From a virus, in IMG/VR virus record IMGVR_UViG_3300047277_000175, positions 1 to 33,561 of that record: a stretch of 33,561 bases of DNA, one strand, 5' to 3'. This document shows positions 5,369-16,118 of this stretch, in pieces. Within the stretch, counting starts at the first letter, position 1; each line of letters begins with the position of its first letter. The notes below the pieces were generated by a model, which searched no databases, was not told the origin of the DNA, and saw only the letters and a program-made list of their open reading frames with translations. The position numbers were made by a program, and so were the translations under genes.

Positions 5369-5634
5369 GCTACACACCCGAAAAATTAGCAGACGCAAAA
5401 ACCCGCTACCGTGTCGCAATGGAAGAAGCGGAAATGAGCTTAGCCATACTCTACATTATTGAAGACGAAGGCGGCAAAATCACAGGCTTGTTATTAGCCG
5501 ATAAATTAATCAAGCGTGGACTATCAAATGCAGCAACCGCCGCTGATTTATGCGATCAGTTAGAAATGGGTAAAACTGAAATTATCCGTCTCACTGACGA
5601 CCTTTTAGACTTTGGCTTGGGAGAATTATTATGA
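5365..5634 (+). CDS. Hypothetical early protein, helical, 89 aa
   Basis: Starts at ATG 5365 (GGGAGAG upstream), overlapping the previous stop by four bases, and overlaps the next start by four. The product is acidic and mostly helical; the C-terminal half (KLIKRGLSNAATAADLCDQLEMGKTEIIRLTDDL) has the shape of a small winged-helix-like or three-helix domain. No named family. Its part in the early operon is unknown. Confidence 0.65.
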   Translation: MSYTPEKLADAKTRYRVAMEEAEMSLAILYIIEDEGGKITGLLLADKLIKRGLSNAATAADLCDQLEMGKTEIIRLTDDLLDFGLGELL

Positions 5635-6704
5635 GCGACAATCAAGACAACCTACCTGTATTAATCATGCAAGCCTTACCAGCCAACGCCTTACAACTGG
5701 CAACCTTAGCGGGTGAAATCAACGCAATGGAATCAGTGCGTATCGATATGGCGGCGGCAACGTGTATGGCGGTCAACAAAACGCTAATCCACACGGTTAA
5801 ACAGGGCGAAAAAATTAGACAGGCAAAGGCACAGGTACAAGGCAGCTTTACTGCGTGGCTAAAGGTTAACTGCCCAGCAATCGGCAGAACCTCCGCTTAT
5901 AACTACATGGCGTTAGCGGAAAAGATGGCTCATTTATTGGATGATTCGGTTGTTCAGACAGCTGGACGATTGCTATCTGATAATTTATCGCAGTCGCAAA
6001 TAATCGCATTAATTTCGGCGCCCGAAGAACTACAGATAGAAGTATCAGCGCGGGTGGATGCAGGCGAGAAAGTGCCAGTAGATGAAATTGACAGGTTAAG
6101 AAAGAAAGCCCAGCAAGCAGATGAAGACTATATAAAAGTAGCCGCCGAGAATGCTGAATTGTTGAGAGACAAAAACGCACTAGAGGATGCGGTAGATGAT
6201 TTTAAACGCGAAGTTGAAGTCATTAAAAGCGACAAGGGCTTTAATGCCTTGGTTATCGGCTTTGTTGCTGAGCAAGTAGACACTGAAAAAGCCAAACTAC
6301 AGCAAGATGTGGACACGTTGGTTGCTCAACACGCGACTGACTATCAAAGCCAGATAGATCACCTTCAAGACAAACTATCGACTGCGACTAATAACCTAGT
6401 CAAGGCTAAAAATCCAGCCGTGTTAGTTGAATTAAACAACCAAATCGTTGACCTAGAAAACGAACTGGCACGCACCGCCCACCGCCTAGAGACCGCTAAT
6501 GCAGAAGTCGCCTATCGCGGTATCGCTACACACGCTATCGAGTCCAGTGCCAGTATGACTATTAGCTTACTAGACCTGAGTGACGCGCTAATCGTTGACT
6601 CCGCTACCACTGAGTTACTACTGCGTGCCGCCCATGATTTGAGCGGTATTGTCGAGCTGCTACAAAAAGCAGCCGCCGTTGAACAGTTTGATATTGAGGG
6701 CTAA
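5631..6704 (+). CDS. DUF3102-like protein with long coiled coil, 357 aa
   Basis: The N-terminal ~110 residues match the DUF3102 pattern: a helix with GEKIRQAKAQVQGSFTAWLK, then GRTSAYNYMALAEK, a helix-turn-helix-like segment seen in phage and plasmid proteins. Residues about 150-300 are a long charged coiled coil with heptads (AENAELLRDKNALEDAVDDF; DLENELARTAHRLETANAEV). The C-terminus is helical and hydrophobic. Likely a DNA-binding, rod-shaped early protein; the biochemical role of the family is not known to me. Overlaps the preceding gene by four bases and is followed after three bases by the next. Confidence 0.7.
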   Translation: MSDNQDNLPVLIMQALPANALQLATLAGEINAMESVRIDMAAATCMAVNKTLIHTVKQGEKIRQAKAQVQGSFTAWLKVNCPAIGRTSAYNYMALAEKMAHLLDDSVVQTAGRLLSDNLSQSQIIALISAPEELQIEVSARVDAGEKVPVDEIDRLRKKAQQADEDYIKVAAENAELLRDKNALEDAVDDFKREVEVIKSDKGFNALVIGFVAEQVDTEKAKLQQDVDTLVAQHATDYQSQIDHLQDKLSTATNNLVKAKNPAVLVELNNQIVDLENELARTAHRLETANAEVAYRGIATHAIESSASMTISLLDLSDALIVDSATTELLLRAAHDLSGIVELLQKAAAVEQFDIEG

Positions 6705-9823: not shown

Positions 9824-9852
9824 GTTGGGTTAGGCGATAGCCGTAACCCAAC
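9824..9852. repeat. REP-like palindrome
   Basis: Perfect nine-base arms gttgggtta (9824-9832) and taacccaac (9844-9852) with an 11-base loop that itself contains ggc/gcc. Sequences of this form (taggttgggtta...taacccaac) are widespread intergenic palindromes in proteobacterial chromosomes. It could also end transcription of the 9306 gene. Its presence suggests the upstream gene came from, or sits beside, host-derived DNA. Confidence 0.7.
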
Positions 9853-9871
9853 AGTTACCGCATTATCGGAG

Positions 9872-9891
9872 TCAAAACTCATGAGTTTTGA
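9872..9891. promoter_or_regulatory. Perfect 20-bp palindrome, probable operator
   Basis: The sequence centred on caaaactcatgagttttg reads identically on both strands over 20 bases. It ends seven bases before a consensus -35 box. A protein dimer bound here could control the C4 RNA/antirepressor promoter. The binding protein is unknown; it does not match the early operator dyads at 1449-1493. Confidence 0.6.
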
Positions 9892-10114
9892 TTCCAGTTT
9901 GACAAAAGCGCGTTATCGGGTTTATCTTATCCATGCACTGGCAAAATCCAGTGTCAGGGGTGAGAGCCTGAATAGTCTATGGTGCAAGCGCACCTTAACG
10001 CGCTTTTTTTATGCCTATCAGTTTATGGTGGGTGTAATTTGGGGAGTCTTACGACTCGCCGCGCCCATAGACGCGGTCTCTCAACCTGAATTATGCCTGC
10101 CGCCCAACTTTTGA
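9881..10114 (+). CDS. Ash/Icd-like small ORF overlapping the C4 RNA, 77 aa
   Basis: An open frame across the C4 RNA and its target, resembling proteins often annotated as Ash family or Icd-like in antirepressor loci (HALAKSSVRGESLNSLWCKR, then TRFFYAYQFMVG). Its ATG is inside the 20-bp palindrome and upstream of the promoter, so the unit transcript would not carry this start. The apparent conservation of such ORFs may merely reflect conservation of the RNA. I list it because annotators would see it, but favour an RNA explanation. Confidence 0.3.
   Translation: MSFDSSLTKARYRVYLIHALAKSSVRGESLNSLWCKRTLTRFFYAYQFMVGVIWGVLRLAAPIDAVSQPELCLPPNF
9899..9928 (+). promoter_or_regulatory. Sigma70-type promoter of the C4 RNA/antirepressor unit
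   Basis: TTGACA at 9899-9904 is a perfect -35; TATCTT at 9923-9928 (18-base spacing), or TTATCT one base earlier (17-base spacing), is the -10. Transcription would start near 9934-9936, at the base of the first C4 hairpin. Confidence 0.65.
9935..10010 (+). ncRNA. C4-type antisense RNA
   Basis: Consecutive hairpins fit the C4 RNA layout of P1/P7-type phages: cactgg/ccagtg (9936-9941/9948-9953); tcagg/cctga (9954-9958/9967-9971) whose eight-base loop shows TGAGAG; and a GC-rich end hairpin with a T run. Two exposed segments, TGAGAG (9961-9966) and GTCTATGG (9975-9982), are exactly complementary to CTCTCA (10078-10083) and CCATAGAC (10065-10072) downstream on the same transcript. In P1 and P7 this RNA represses antirepressor synthesis by blocking translation of a leader ORF. 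The perfect double complementarity, promoter, terminator and BRO-N gene make the call strong. Confidence 0.87.
9986..10010 (+). terminator. Rho-independent terminator of the C4 RNA
   Basis: aagcgc (9986-9991) pairs with gcgctt (10000-10005) around an eight-base loop, followed by seven T (10004-10010). An alternative small hairpin ggtgc/gcacc (9981-9994) competes with it, which could allow regulated readthrough into the antirepressor. Confidence 0.75.
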
Positions 10115-10118
10115 GAGA
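10065..10118 (+). promoter_or_regulatory. C4 RNA target and alternative hairpin upstream of the antirepressor
   Basis: CCATAGAC (10065-10072) and CTCTCA (10078-10083) are the complements of the two C4 segments, in antiparallel order as required. The second segment can instead pair with TTGAGAGA (10111-10118) to form a local hairpin (arms 10077-10084 and 10111-10118). The target ends ten bases before the ATG of the leader ORF at 10093, so C4 binding would cover its initiation region. Confidence 0.75.
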
Positions 10119-10293
10119 GTTGACGCGGTTTCCTACTTTTCTATGGAGACTATCATGTCTAACAATTCAGCTATTCAAGCATTCCAATTTCAAGCTACTT
10201 CACTGCGTGTCGAAACAGACGAACATGGAAATCCATTGTTCTGTGCTAAAGATGTTTGTGATATTTTGGGGTATGCCAATTCACGCGACATAA
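10093..10293 (+). CDS. Candidate leader ORF (icd position) overlapping the antirepressor, 66 aa
   Basis: ATG 10093 opens a frame that runs through the antirepressor start (10155) in another frame. This is the arrangement of icd relative to ant in phage P1, where C4 RNA blocks icd translation and thereby, through coupling, ant. The peptide (MPAAQLLRELTRFPTFLWRL at the start) has no clear similarity to P1 Icd that I can state. There is no strong Shine-Dalgarno site. Its role is inferred from layout. Confidence 0.35.
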   Translation: MPAAQLLRELTRFPTFLWRLSCLTIQLFKHSNFKLLHCVSKQTNMEIHCSVLKMFVIFWGMPIHAT

Positions 10294-10874
10294 TAAAGAA
10301 ATTTTGCAGAGAAGCTGGTGTATCTAATCGATACGTCAGCCATGAAAGCGGAGCAAAACAAGCGTCATTCATTGACGAAGGAAATCTTTACCGTCTAATC
10401 ATAAAATCCAACAAACCAGAGTCAGAGCCGTTTGAAGCATGGGTTTGTGATGAAGTTCTCCCCGCTATCCGCAAAACAGGCGGCTACGGAATGCCCGACT
10501 ACTCGCAACCCATTACCACCCCTATCACACTAGAAGAGTTTGAAACCCGTCACGCCTTTCACACCAACGCCCTAGCGCAACTCAAAACCGCCACCGTCAC
10601 TATGACCGTTAGCGGTGCAGATTGCTTAACCATGTCAAAGAACTTCCAGAACGCCTTACAAGGCAAGTTCACCGAAAAAGCCCTTGAGTTTGTGTTTGGT
10701 AGTGACAAGCCCAGCAAGCTCAAAAGAACCCGCTGGACACAATTCGAGATTGACGCACTCAGAGCCTATCGCGACGATGGCTACACTGCCGCCGACATTG
10801 CCAAAAAACTAAACCGCACCACCGATGGCGTTAGAAATGCAGCGTACAAATACGCCAAGGCAGGTACGGCATGA
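10155..10874 (+). CDS. ant: BRO-N antirepressor, 239 aa
   Basis: Residues about 5-105 are a BRO-N domain: LRVETDEHGNPLFCAKDVCD, ILGYANSRDIIKKF, FIDEGNLYRLIIKS, FEAWVCDEVLPAIRKTGGYG. Such proteins in phages bind or inactivate repressors. The C-terminal segment (RWTQFEIDALRAYRDDGYTA, then DIAKKLNRTTDGVRNAAYKY) is a Myb-like/GcrA-like helix-turn-helix. ATG 10155 is preferred to ATG 10143 because GGAG at 10145-10148 gives six-base spacing. Expression should be held down by the upstream C4 RNA. Likely target: the 960-1430 repressor or that of a competing prophage. Confidence 0.87.
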   Translation: MSNNSAIQAFQFQATSLRVETDEHGNPLFCAKDVCDILGYANSRDIIKKFCREAGVSNRYVSHESGAKQASFIDEGNLYRLIIKSNKPESEPFEAWVCDEVLPAIRKTGGYGMPDYSQPITTPITLEEFETRHAFHTNALAQLKTATVTMTVSGADCLTMSKNFQNALQGKFTEKALEFVFGSDKPSKLKRTRWTQFEIDALRAYRDDGYTAADIAKKLNRTTDGVRNAAYKYAKAGTA

Positions 10875-12052: not shown

Positions 12053-12613
12053 ATGGGCAGAAAATCGACGTTTAGCCAGTTGCCAGAAGAGATCACCGCG
12101 CGGTTTCATGAGCTTCTGCGTTCAGACAAATACACGCAAGAACAAATGCGTGACTATCTGAATGACTATCTGAATGAGCTAGGTGAGCAGCCTGTTATTA
12201 CTCGCGACATCGTTCAGAAACAAGCTAAAAATTACAAAGAGCGGTTGATTGCAATCAGTGAAGACCGCCGCCGTGAAAAAGAGATTATTAACGGCATTAT
12301 GGCAGCCACAGGCATGAAGCCAGACGCAGAACAAGCACAGCTCACATCGATTTTATTGCAGAGTATTATTTCAAAAGTCACTATCGAAATGTCAGACAGT
12401 GAGGAATTGCCTGATATTGATAACATCAAAAAACTAGCGTGGACACACAAAATAGTCAATGAATCGAACCGCGTTATTGAACAGTCTGTTAAACAAGCAG
12501 AGGAGAGGCTGGCTAAGGAAATGGCGGCGGCGATGAAAGCCAACGGCGTTGATGCAGAAACAATCAGAGTAGTGGAGAGGGCAATTGTCAAAGTTACAGA
12601 TACCAACGGCTGA
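12053..12613 (+). CDS. DUF3486 (Mu gp27-like) small terminase subunit, 186 aa
   Basis: Begins MGRKSTFSQLPEEITARFHE, the usual start of DUF3486 proteins, with a helix-turn-helix in the first ~60 residues (SDKYTQEQMRDYLNDYLNEL; VITRDIVQKQAKNYKERL) and a helical oligomerisation region after it. In Mu-like phages this is the DNA-recognition subunit that starts headful packaging. The next gene begins inside its 3' end (29-base overlap), so the two terminase subunits are translationally linked. This is the last clearly Mu-type protein of the late operon. Confidence 0.85.
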   Translation: MGRKSTFSQLPEEITARFHELLRSDKYTQEQMRDYLNDYLNELGEQPVITRDIVQKQAKNYKERLIAISEDRRREKEIINGIMAATGMKPDAEQAQLTSILLQSIISKVTIEMSDSEELPDIDNIKKLAWTHKIVNESNRVIEQSVKQAEERLAKEMAAAMKANGVDAETIRVVERAIVKVTDTNG

Positions 12614-13901
12614 TGCTTTTCTACCGTTCTTAGAAAACCGTACAGCGCGCAACCACGCGGCGCACGGCGGACGCGGCGGCATGAAATCACATTACTTCGC
12701 AGGCGCATTGATTGAAGAGCATTTATGCACGGGCGGGTTTCGTTCTGTGTGTATTCGTGAGATTCAAAAAACCCTAGGCAGCTCATCTAAGCAGCTGCTA
12801 GAAGACAAACTACGCGAGTTTAAATTAACCCGCGCAGGTCAAGGCTTTAAGGTTTTTAATGACGTTATCCAAACGCCTCAAGATGGCTTAATCCTGTTTC
12901 AAGGGATGCAAGACCATACAGCCGATTCGATAAAATCATTAGAAGGCATGGATTTAGCGTGGGTAGAAGAGGCGCAAACCATTACCGAGCGGTCGTTGAA
13001 TATGTTACGCCCAACAATACGCAAGAAAGGTTCGCGGTTATGGTTTGGCTGGAATCCACGTCGCAAAACCGACGCGGTAGACAAGTTTTTTAGAAGTGCA
13101 GAAACGCCCACTAACTCAATTATTTTAAAAACTGGCTGGCAACATAACCCATGGTGGACAGCAGAATTAGAGCAAGAACGGCTAGACGATTTACGCATTA
13201 ACCCCGATCAATACGATCATATCTGGGAAGGCGGTTATATCTCAGTCGCTAACGGCGCGTACTTTGCCCAGCACTTACAGCAAGCACGGCTTGAAAATCG
13301 CATTGGTAAGGTAAACGTAGACCCACTGCTACGCAAGTATGCCTTTATTGATATTGGCGGCACAGGGGCTAATTCTGACGCTTTTACGATGTGGATAGTG
13401 CAGTTTGTTGGTAAAGAAATCCGCGTGCTGAATTATTACGAAGTCATAGGGCAGCCATTAGCCGCTCATGTGACGTGGTTACGCACTAATGCTTACGACG
13501 ATGCAGTGATTGTATTGCCACACGACGGTCGGCAACACGACAAGGTTTACAAGGTGACTTATGAGTCGTCCTTTAAAGACCTAGGTTTTAACGTGATTGT
13601 CATACCCAACCAAGGCGCGGGTGCGGCAAATATGCGTATCGAAGCAGTACGCGGTTGTTTCCATGACTGTTATTTTGACGAGATTAAATGTGCAGCAGGG
13701 CTTGAGGCTCTAGGCTGGTATCACGAAAAGAAAGACGCAAATAGAAATATCGGTTTAGGTGCGGATCATGATTGGTCTAGTCACGGCGCAGATAGTTTTG
13801 GCTTAATGGCCATCACCAGAAACAAGCTCAGCAAGCCACGCGATACGCGAAAAATAGCGTTAATCAATAACGCCCCTTCTGACTCGATAGCAGGATATTA
13901 A
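12585..13901 (+). CDS. Terminase large subunit, 438 aa
   Basis: DNA-packaging motor with ATPase and nuclease domains. A Walker A-like GGRGGMKS lies at residues 28-35; Walker B-like LEGMDLAWVEEAQT near 125; LWFGWNPRRKTD is the typical coupling segment of PBSX/P22-type large terminases. The nuclease half starts near residue 250 with YAFIDIGGTGANSDAF, and later acidic residues occur in PHDGRQHDK and GADHDWSSHGADSF. It resembles the Terminase_3 type, not Mu gp28. The start is TTG 12585, preceded by GAGAGG inside the small-subunit gene; a later start would remove sequence just before Walker A. Confidence 0.88.
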   Translation: MSKLQIPTADAFLPFLENRTARNHAAHGGRGGMKSHYFAGALIEEHLCTGGFRSVCIREIQKTLGSSSKQLLEDKLREFKLTRAGQGFKVFNDVIQTPQDGLILFQGMQDHTADSIKSLEGMDLAWVEEAQTITERSLNMLRPTIRKKGSRLWFGWNPRRKTDAVDKFFRSAETPTNSIILKTGWQHNPWWTAELEQERLDDLRINPDQYDHIWEGGYISVANGAYFAQHLQQARLENRIGKVNVDPLLRKYAFIDIGGTGANSDAFTMWIVQFVGKEIRVLNYYEVIGQPLAAHVTWLRTNAYDDAVIVLPHDGRQHDKVYKVTYESSFKDLGFNVIVIPNQGAGAANMRIEAVRGCFHDCYFDEIKCAAGLEALGWYHEKKDANRNIGLGADHDWSSHGADSFGLMAITRNKLSKPRDTRKIALINNAPSDSIAGY

Positions 13902-13904
13902 GCA

Positions 13905-16118
13905 ATGTTTGACGAATTTGAGCAGGAAGACAGCCCCGAAGAAGAAGCCAAGGAATTACTGGAGGCACTGGGTGAACGCTTGCAAAAACTGGCAAATGAA
14001 CAGATTGCTATTCGTGAGGTCGTGCAGACCCGCTGGTTAGATGATTTAGATCAATACATGGGGCGTTATGACTCAGAAACACTGGCAAGGCTAGAGCAGT
14101 CAGGCGGTTCTAAGGCGTTTGTGAACATTACCCGCCCTAAGACCTTGCAAGCAGAGTCACGCTTAGCGGATATGCTGTTGCCGACGGATGATAAGAATTG
14201 GGCAATACAACTCACGCCAGTTCCTGAGTTTCACGCCGCGCTGAATAATCACCGTGTTGTGTCGAACGATGAACAAGGCAATCCTGTCACTGTGGCACAA
14301 ATCGCCATGAAAGAAATGCGCAAACCTTGCTTAGCAATGGAAAGCGAGATAGACGACCAACTGACAGAATGTAACTACCACCGCACCGCCCGCGAAGTGA
14401 TCCATGATGCTTGCCTATTCGGCACGGGCATTATTAAAGCCCCTGTGATTGTCGAAAAAGTCACTAAGAAATGGCAGAAGCTACAGGGCGCGGTGCATGA
14501 ATTAACTGCTAATAGTCAGTTTGTACCCAGTGCAGAGCGGGTAGAGGTGTGGAATTTTTTTCCCGATATGGCAGCGCACCACATTGATGATTGCGAGTTT
14601 GTCTTAGAACGGCGTTATGTCAGCAAGTCACAGTTGCTAAAACTGGCTAAAAACCCTGCTTACGATAGTGCGGCAATTAAAAAAGTCATTAGTGAGAAGC
14701 GCAATTACGAAGCCAATAACAGCGGCACGCACATATCACGCCTGAGAGATTCATCGGATTTAAACATCTCGCTTAATAAAAATCGTTTTGAGCTATGGGA
14801 ATACTGGGGCGCGATTAGTAGCGAAGATTTAAGCGCGTGCGGGCATGATGTTGATGATATGGGTGAGCATAACGCGGTGGTATGTTTCATTAACGGCGTG
14901 GTGATTAAAGGCGATTTAAACGCCGATGAAACAGGCGATAACCCGTATTCGATGTTTATTTATGAAAAAGACGACTCAAGTATTTTTGGCTTAGGTGTGC
15001 CGTTTTTACTGAGAAATGAACAGCGTATCGCTAATGCAGCGTGGCGAATGGCACTGGATAACGCGGCTTTAACTACAGGGCCACAAATTATTGTTAATCG
15101 TGAGCTTGTCATTCCGTCGGATGGAAATTGGGATTTAAAGCCTAAAAAAGTGTGGTGGTTAAATTCAGAAGTGGGCAGTGTGCGTGACGTGTTTGCCACG
15201 CATGACATTAACGGGCATCAAGCCGAATTGATTAATTTATACGAACTTGCCAAGGGAATGGCAGACGACGTGACGAATATGCCATTAATCGCACAAGGCG
15301 ATTCAAACGCCGCGCCTGATACAGCTACAGGTACGTCTATGCTGATGAACGCGGCAAATGCGACACTAAGGCGCGTGGTGAAGTATTTTGACGACAATAT
15401 CACCGAGCCAGTCATTACCCGCTTCTATAACTGGAATATGCAAAATAGCGACAAGGAAGCGATTAAAGGAGACTTTAATGTTGATGCTAGGGGTAGCAGT
15501 GCCTTATTGGTTAAAGAGACTCAGAATCACGCCCTGCTTAATTTATTGAGTATATCTGAGAGTCCTACTTACTCGCCATTAACTAAACACGCTGAATTGT
15601 ATCGAAAAGCGGTACAGGCGCAGCACATTAACGCGGACGACGTGATTAAGACTGACGAAGAAATAGCCGCCGATGCGCAGAAACCAGATCCGCAACAACA
15701 GCAATTAGCACAATTGCAAATTGAAAAACTGACTGAAGAAGTCGCAAATCTAAAATTAACAGGCAACAAAATCATTGCCGATACTGCCGTGCAGAATGTT
15801 GACGCGCTCTTCGGATCAATGAATACCGCCGAGAAAGTCGCGCTAATGCCAGAAATAGCAATTATGGGCGATGAAATCAGCAAATCAGCAGGATTTATTG
15901 ACCATGATGGCGGGTCAATTGTTACACCACAATCACCACCCACAGAACAACAGGAGGCACAAAATGGCAGCGAGCAAAGGCAAGAGCAAGAGCAAAACCC
16001 CACCGAAACCGAAATGCTAGGCAATCAGGTGGAGGTACTACCACCGCCTGAACAAAACACCCACCCACAATTTCCACCTAATCCAGATGTTGGGATGATG
16101 GCGGGGATTGATAGTTAA
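13905..16118 (+). CDS. Podovirus-type portal protein, 737 aa
   Basis: Twelve-fold ring at the packaging vertex, joining head and tail. Length is close to the P22 portal (725 aa) and far above Mu gp29. Features: an N-terminal helix with RWLDDLDQYMGRYDSETLAR; RPKTLQAESRLADMLLPTDD, a typical portal clip/wing start; IHDACLFGTGIIKAP; a domain with EVWNFFPDMAA; QRIANAAWRMALDNAALTTG, likely crown/stem helices; MADDVTNMPLIAQGDSNAAP; and a Gln/Pro-rich C-terminus (from about 650) like the long barrel of P22-type portals, though probably disordered. It starts three bases after the terminase stop. Confidence 0.88.
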   Translation: MFDEFEQEDSPEEEAKELLEALGERLQKLANEQIAIREVVQTRWLDDLDQYMGRYDSETLARLEQSGGSKAFVNITRPKTLQAESRLADMLLPTDDKNWAIQLTPVPEFHAALNNHRVVSNDEQGNPVTVAQIAMKEMRKPCLAMESEIDDQLTECNYHRTAREVIHDACLFGTGIIKAPVIVEKVTKKWQKLQGAVHELTANSQFVPSAERVEVWNFFPDMAAHHIDDCEFVLERRYVSKSQLLKLAKNPAYDSAAIKKVISEKRNYEANNSGTHISRLRDSSDLNISLNKNRFELWEYWGAISSEDLSACGHDVDDMGEHNAVVCFINGVVIKGDLNADETGDNPYSMFIYEKDDSSIFGLGVPFLLRNEQRIANAAWRMALDNAALTTGPQIIVNRELVIPSDGNWDLKPKKVWWLNSEVGSVRDVFATHDINGHQAELINLYELAKGMADDVTNMPLIAQGDSNAAPDTATGTSMLMNAANATLRRVVKYFDDNITEPVITRFYNWNMQNSDKEAIKGDFNVDARGSSALLVKETQNHALLNLLSISESPTYSPLTKHAELYRKAVQAQHINADDVIKTDEEIAADAQKPDPQQQQLAQLQIEKLTEEVANLKLTGNKIIADTAVQNVDALFGSMNTAEKVALMPEIAIMGDEISKSAGFIDHDGGSIVTPQSPPTEQQEAQNGSEQRQEQEQNPTETEMLGNQVEVLPPPEQNTHPQFPPNPDVGMMAGIDS

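Follow-up and report, generated by a model that had tools for sequence, protein, structure and literature searches.

Ahead of the antirepressor gene (ant) of a Mu-like phage we found what, with a probability of roughly 85%, is a P1-type C4 immunity unit with an IsrK-like decoy. The window, by which we mean the whole 33,561-base stretch of DNA that was analyzed, comes from an IMG/VR virus record. Computation established the identity of the C4 and IsrK RNAs, the complementarity of C4 to two targets (a1b1 and a2b2), the co-variation of the pairing segments, the placement of one of them (b2) at the ribosome-binding site of ant and the synteny of the unit in Mu-like phages. The C4 unit is genuine and conserved; its kind is already known but its carriers are new, and it is of interest because it recurs in transposable phages, co-varies at three sites and is linked to IsrK. 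P1 C4-type RNA immunity is thereby extended to transposable (Mu-like) phages, where it occupies a recurrent place. The initial annotation had proposed a second, RNA-based immunity unit besides the repressor in this Mu-like phage, and this proposal holds, as there is a C4/antirepressor unit and a separate HTH repressor gene (Table 1).

Table 1. Features of the immunity unit and the repressor gene, by position in the window; L030 and L004 are related contigs.
Feature	Position	Strand	Basis or remark
Phage repressor gene	960–1430	−	HTH_3 and Phage_CI_repr matches
Near-perfect 28-bp inverted repeat just 5′ of the −35 box	9868–9895		Candidate operator
Promoter-like site, TTGACA-18-TATCTT, of the isrK-C4-ant transcript	9899–9928	+	Consensus match only (−35, 9899–9904; −10, 9923–9928; spacer 18); TTTGACA and a −10-like hexamer also in L030 and L004
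IsrK/a1b1-type RNA ending at a Rho-independent terminator; candidate C4 decoy	9935–10010	+	Rfam isrK
a1, TGAGAG	9961–9966	+	Co-varies in L030 and L004
b1, TCTATGG	9976–9982	+	Co-varies in L030 and L004
Intrinsic terminator between IsrK and C4	9986–10010	+	Stem-loop 9986–10005, T run 10004–10010
C4 antisense RNA	10021–10107	+	Rfam C4 covariance model, three-stem fold
b′, CCATAGA, P3 loop of C4, complementary to b1 and b2	10065–10071	+	Sequence complementarity
a′, TCTCTCAA, of C4, complementary to a1 and a2	10077–10084	+	Sequence complementarity
a2 target, TTGAGAGA, in the ant leader	10111–10118	+	Complementary to a′
b2 target, TCTATGG (10140–10146), overlapping the ant Shine-Dalgarno GGAG (10145–10148)	10140–10148	+	Same layout in L030 and L004
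ant, BRO-N antirepressor, 239 aa	10155–10874	+	Pfam Bro-N, PHROG

Anatomy of the isrK-C4-ant locus

The Rfam C4 covariance model (RF01695) matched with 56.8 bits against a cut-off of 45, over its full length (model positions 1–87), and the region folds into three stems (z −3.35). RNAs of this family are trimmed to about 77 nt by RNase P, and the TTTAT/GGTGGG context in the window resembles the AATTAT/GGTGGG of P1. Since the C4 model matches the downstream element, the Rfam search suggested in the initial annotation succeeded, but on the RNA that had been taken for the target; the antisense and target roles had been swapped. The stretch 9935–10010 was rejected as C4 because the C4 model matches elsewhere and this upstream RNA matches isrK; it is an a1b1/IsrK element. 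Its isrK match (RF01394) is marginal, with 50.8 bits against a cut-off of 50, and c4-a1b1 (RF03163), the Rfam model for upstream targets of C4, stayed under its cut-off at 9922–9974 in a relaxed-threshold search (33.7 vs. 46.7 bits). The motifs listed in the initial annotation, among them three hairpins, a consensus −35/−10 promoter and a Rho-independent terminator, all stand where it had placed them. The first IsrK hairpin (9935–9954), with the loop GCAAAATC in the window and GCAAATTC in P1, is strongly conserved without pairing to C4.

The pairing segments follow the order target-C4-target, with exactly two occurrences of TGAGAG...TCTATGG (from 9961 and 10112) and one of CCATAGA...CTCTCA (from 10065) in the whole window. 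The b1 region is contained in GTCTATGG (9975–9982), and C4 holds CCATAGAC (10065–10072) and CTCTCA (10078–10083). The complementarity between two segments and two downstream sites that had been reported for this locus is indeed exact, but the second copy of the segments, at 10111–10118 and 10140–10146, had been missed. Here TTGAGAGA is complementary to TCTCTCAA, and CTATGG, complementary to CCATAG, overlaps the GGAG that lies 6 nt upstream of the ant start codon (ATG 10155), ant starting 9 nt past b2. It is thus a2b2, on the ribosome-binding site of ant, that C4 would repress. Given this site and the position of the C4 match, the order of elements is therefore promoter, a1b1/IsrK, terminator, C4, a2b2 and ant, as in P1.

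A BRO-N gene had been recognized downstream and is present. Its ORF (10143–10874) matched Pfam Bro-N (1.7e-21; 77.1 vs. 25.6 bits) and its product matched the PHROG "anti-repressor Ant" (phrog_130, 4.8e-42); an in-frame ATG at 10143, 5′ of the ant ATG, falls inside b2. The leader ORF (ATG 10093, 66 aa) that had been credited with icd-like control of ant does exist as an open frame, but such control by coupling is not supported because its start codon is lost in L030 and L004 (AATTATGCC versus AATTACATCC) and b′ covers the ant Shine-Dalgarno directly. As the start is not conserved and there was no Pfam match, this ORF was rejected as an icd homolog.

Within the 28-bp inverted repeat upstream of the promoter is a perfect 20-bp palindrome, TCAAAACTCATGAGTTTTGA (9872–9891), which has one copy in the window. 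The repeat is a possible operator and is absent from L030. Another inverted repeat, GTTGGGTTA...TAACCCAAC at 9824–9852, has a differing counterpart in L030 (GGTGGGC...GCCCACC); it may be host-derived and of use for naming the host.

Co-variation of the pairing segments

The window, L030 and L004 belong to one phage lineage, the latter two as fragments. L030 encodes a DUF3164 protein 80% identical to that of the window together with a MuA-like protein, and L004 encodes GemA and, as judged from the translated sequence, a Gp27-like ORF. The a1/a′/a2 segments are TGAGAG/CTCTCA/TGAGAG in the window, TGACAG/CTGTCA/TGACAG in L030 and TGGTAG/CTACCA/TGGTAG in L004, while b1/b′/b2 are TCTATGG/CCATAGA/TCTATGG in the window and TCAAAGG/CCTTTGA/TCAAAGG in both relatives. 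Thus L030 departs from the window at one a-position and two b-positions, in every one of the three sites, and L004 departs from it at two a-positions and two b-positions, every a′/b′ change in C4 being matched on both sides. Complementarity is therefore kept in these two relatives, the pairing segments changing together, and heteroimmunity between very similar phages is predicted from these few co-varying bases.

Among the 53 of 63 C4 loci that had a parsable a′ region (10 were unparsed), complementarity to the locus's own flank reached a score of ≥12 in 87% of cases upstream and 85% downstream. When C4/flank pairs were swapped between loci, this score was reached in 11% upstream and 4.6% downstream; these percentages ignore kinship, and many of the scored loci came from an isrK pattern that fixes TG..AG. 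With dinucleotide shuffles of the window's flanks, complementarity as high as that observed arose in 72 of 5000 trials upstream and 2 of 5000 downstream, and we regard the comparative evidence as stronger than this test. Cofold energies were weak, too weak to discriminate, and a kissing-loop contact lies outside the model.

Proposed mechanism and relation to known systems

By analogy to P1 and Gifsy-1, the processing, repression, decoy action and Ant activity of this unit may be envisaged as follows. Most transcripts from the promoter would end at 10010, giving a 76-nt IsrK-like RNA with a1b1, and read-through past this point would give a longer RNA, on which both C4 and ant depend and which RNase P would cut to release C4 (about 10027–10104, ~78 nt). 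The a′ and b′ segments of C4 would then pair with a2b2 (10111–10146) and cover the ant Shine-Dalgarno, so that ant would not be translated in the lysogen. The a and b segments of the IsrK-like RNA match those of the ant leader, so it would compete for C4, and its build-up would titrate C4, allowing Ant to be made and the phage repressor to be inactivated. The presumed target of Ant is the repressor in Table 1, as assumed from family annotation. A direct block of ant translation at the Shine-Dalgarno, without icd, is most likely judging from the anatomy of the locus and from P1 and Gifsy-1, because conservation of the 10093 frame is lacking and b2 falls on the ribosome-binding site of ant. Judging likewise from the anatomy and from P1 and Gifsy-1, competition for C4 is the most likely role of the IsrK-like RNA.

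The annotation of the P1 record has the order a1, b1, c4, a2, b2, icd; the Rfam C4 and c4-a1b1 models match there, with isrK under its cut-off on the a1b1 region (35 bits). The P1/P7 immI locus (c4-icd-ant) resembles the window in its succession of promoter, a1b1, terminator-like hairpin, C4, a2b2 and antirepressor, in the C4 fold and in the complementarity of a′ and b′ to both flanking sites. Unlike P1/P7, however, the window is without icd and has b2 directly on the ant ribosome-binding site, its Ant is a BRO-N protein as opposed to P1 Ant1/2, and it belongs to a transposable phage rather than a plasmid prophage.

The Gifsy-1 locus, isrK-orf45(STnc1160)-anrP, shares with the window isrK, C4 and a2b2 ahead of an antirepressor, while the window differs in having no orf45-type ORF running into ant (its frame is 29 aa) and in the domain of its Ant. 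C4 in Gifsy-1, a strong match that takes in orf45/STnc1160 (69 bits, 10132–10215, minus strand), comes directly after isrK (79 bits, 10241–10317, minus strand). Counted from the isrK start, C4 occupies nt 103–186, with a1 at 26–32, a′ at 158–164, a2 from 192, b2 from 223 and anrP at 241, and the 45-codon orf45 begins inside C4. The published compensatory pairs G28/C162 and G31/C159 (PMC4825925) are a1:a′ pairs, and the ~80-nt species STnc1160, to which a ~180-nt RNA is cut (Hershko-Shalev et al., PMC4825925), agrees with C4 at nt 103–186. The term "C4 RNA" is absent from the text of that paper; we infer that STnc1160 is C4, a statement that we found in no paper. In a list of matches for Xylella, isrK and C4 adjoin without comment.

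Gifsy-1 also provides an observation against the decoy idea, since constitutive orf45/STnc1160 failed to relieve IsrK-mediated growth arrest (PMC4825925). The authors of that study proposed that IsrK binds the mRNA directly, and in the corresponding model for the window the IsrK-like sRNA would rearrange the long mRNA such that orf45 in the C4 region is translated and coupled to the antirepressor, C4 being mainly mRNA structure and not a free antisense RNA. Despite the experimental support for this model in Gifsy-1 (PMC4825925), the anatomy of which is the same as that of the window, we consider it quite improbable here. The window ORF from the C4 AUG has 29 aa and ends at 10114, 40 nt short of ant, and by reading of the alignment the same frame in L030 meets a TGA inside C4, so coupling through an orf45 homolog is not conserved; moreover, the model has no need of the co-variation of C4 with a2b2 at the ant Shine-Dalgarno.

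PMC4825925 likens the Gifsy-1 locus to P4 seqA/CI/seqC, which, as described there, has the same layout as the window, an antisense RNA that is processed and is flanked on either side by a site complementary to it. Pairing of C4 with a1b1 and/or a2b2 might accordingly act mainly by ending transcription early, as attenuation, and not by a translational block; the terminator between IsrK and C4 and the weak BLAST similarity of the C4 consensus to P4 would agree with this. P4 CI acts through transcription termination of replication genes, and P4 has no antirepressor in this system. In the window, b2 on the Shine-Dalgarno fits translational control, which makes attenuation unlikely as the main mode, although the two forms of control can coexist. 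The arrangement in the initial annotation, with 9935–10010 as C4 and 10065–10083 as a target controlling a leader ORF coupled to ant, we regard as highly improbable: the complementarity it listed is exact, but the C4 covariance model falls on 10021–10107, a further copy of the a and b segments stands on the ribosome-binding site of ant, and neither relative keeps the start of the leader ORF.

A wider proposal is offered tentatively, at a little under even odds. At all such loci, including Gifsy-1, IsrK/a1b1 would be a self-terminating, C4-titrating decoy, and C4 systems would act as RNA threshold switches of three parts, a decoy, an antisense RNA and a target. IsrK would activate AnrP in Gifsy-1 via an unrecognized C4 (STnc1160), and the same device, syntenic across several transposable phages, would be a second immunity whose specificity shifts by concerted three-site substitutions. 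Apart from this wider proposal, P1 C4 and Salmonella IsrK/STnc1160, which have been studied separately, are joined here as one module; the published Gifsy-1 mutants are therefore open to re-reading and the decoy idea is directly testable.

Carriers of the unit and genome context

Fifty C4-bearing viral records were surveyed, with GemA over its cut-off in ten and DUF3164 in six. In nine, C4 is on the strand of GemA or DUF3164 and just 3′ of it, and an isrK match is present too in all ten; a record with C4 about 20 kb off and on the other strand was left out of the count. MuA was over its cut-off in two of the C4-bearing Mu-like records and weak in three. With the IsrK-C4 pair in at least nine other contigs that have Mu-like genes, the unit is a recurring one among transposable phages. 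We found no published C4 case in a Mu-type phage in the open-licence literature, to which the search was limited, so the missing report is no proof of absence. Two Vibrio phages, Aeromonas phage LPM4 and Pseudomonas phage PAJU2 also have C4 without an RNA feature annotated there; isrK or a1b1 precedes it in all four, and an antirepressor is annotated downstream in all but PAJU2 (hypothetical protein).

Different antirepressors stand behind C4: the window and L004 have BRO-N, L030 has KilA-N and other loci have others. In L029, a contig of the same lineage (DUF3164 88% identical), two Arc-like ORFs precede a KilA-N ant (L029 6987–8197) and neither C4 nor isrK was detected. The P22 arc/mnt/ant locus is arranged likewise. 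In P22 immI (arc/mnt-ant), as in the window, the antirepressor gene of a prophage has a small repressor to itself, but in P22 that repressor is an Arc-like protein, and it is such a protein that replaces C4 in L029. Control of the ant locus thus seems to switch between protein and RNA.

The window encodes the Mu-like early proteins GemA, Mor, Gp27 and DUF3164, each over its Pfam cut-off, and its early region has the order repressor, weak MuA, MuB-like AAA, DUF3164, Mor, GemA, C4-ant, Gp27. The MuB-like AAA protein matched phrog_296, "DNA transposition protein" (8.9e-13). The MuA-like protein has a DDE-like D/D/E pattern and a weak match to Mu-transpos_C_2 (E 0.006), to which its L030 relative matched with 1.6e-4. 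It had no match to PF09299 or in a PDB profile search, and the predicted structure of the transposase core had a pLDDT of 35, too low to read. No relatives were found for the transposase or for MuB among viral contigs or named phages, or via the portal or DUF3164 among genome contigs. A podovirus-type terminase and portal (12585–16118) are combined with this Mu-like early region, and the closest terminases are from podoviruses of Vibrio, Sulfitobacter and others. A 357-aa protein (5631–6704) has weak matches to DUF3102 and LmuB (PADLOC, E 1e-4), which probably arise through a coiled coil.
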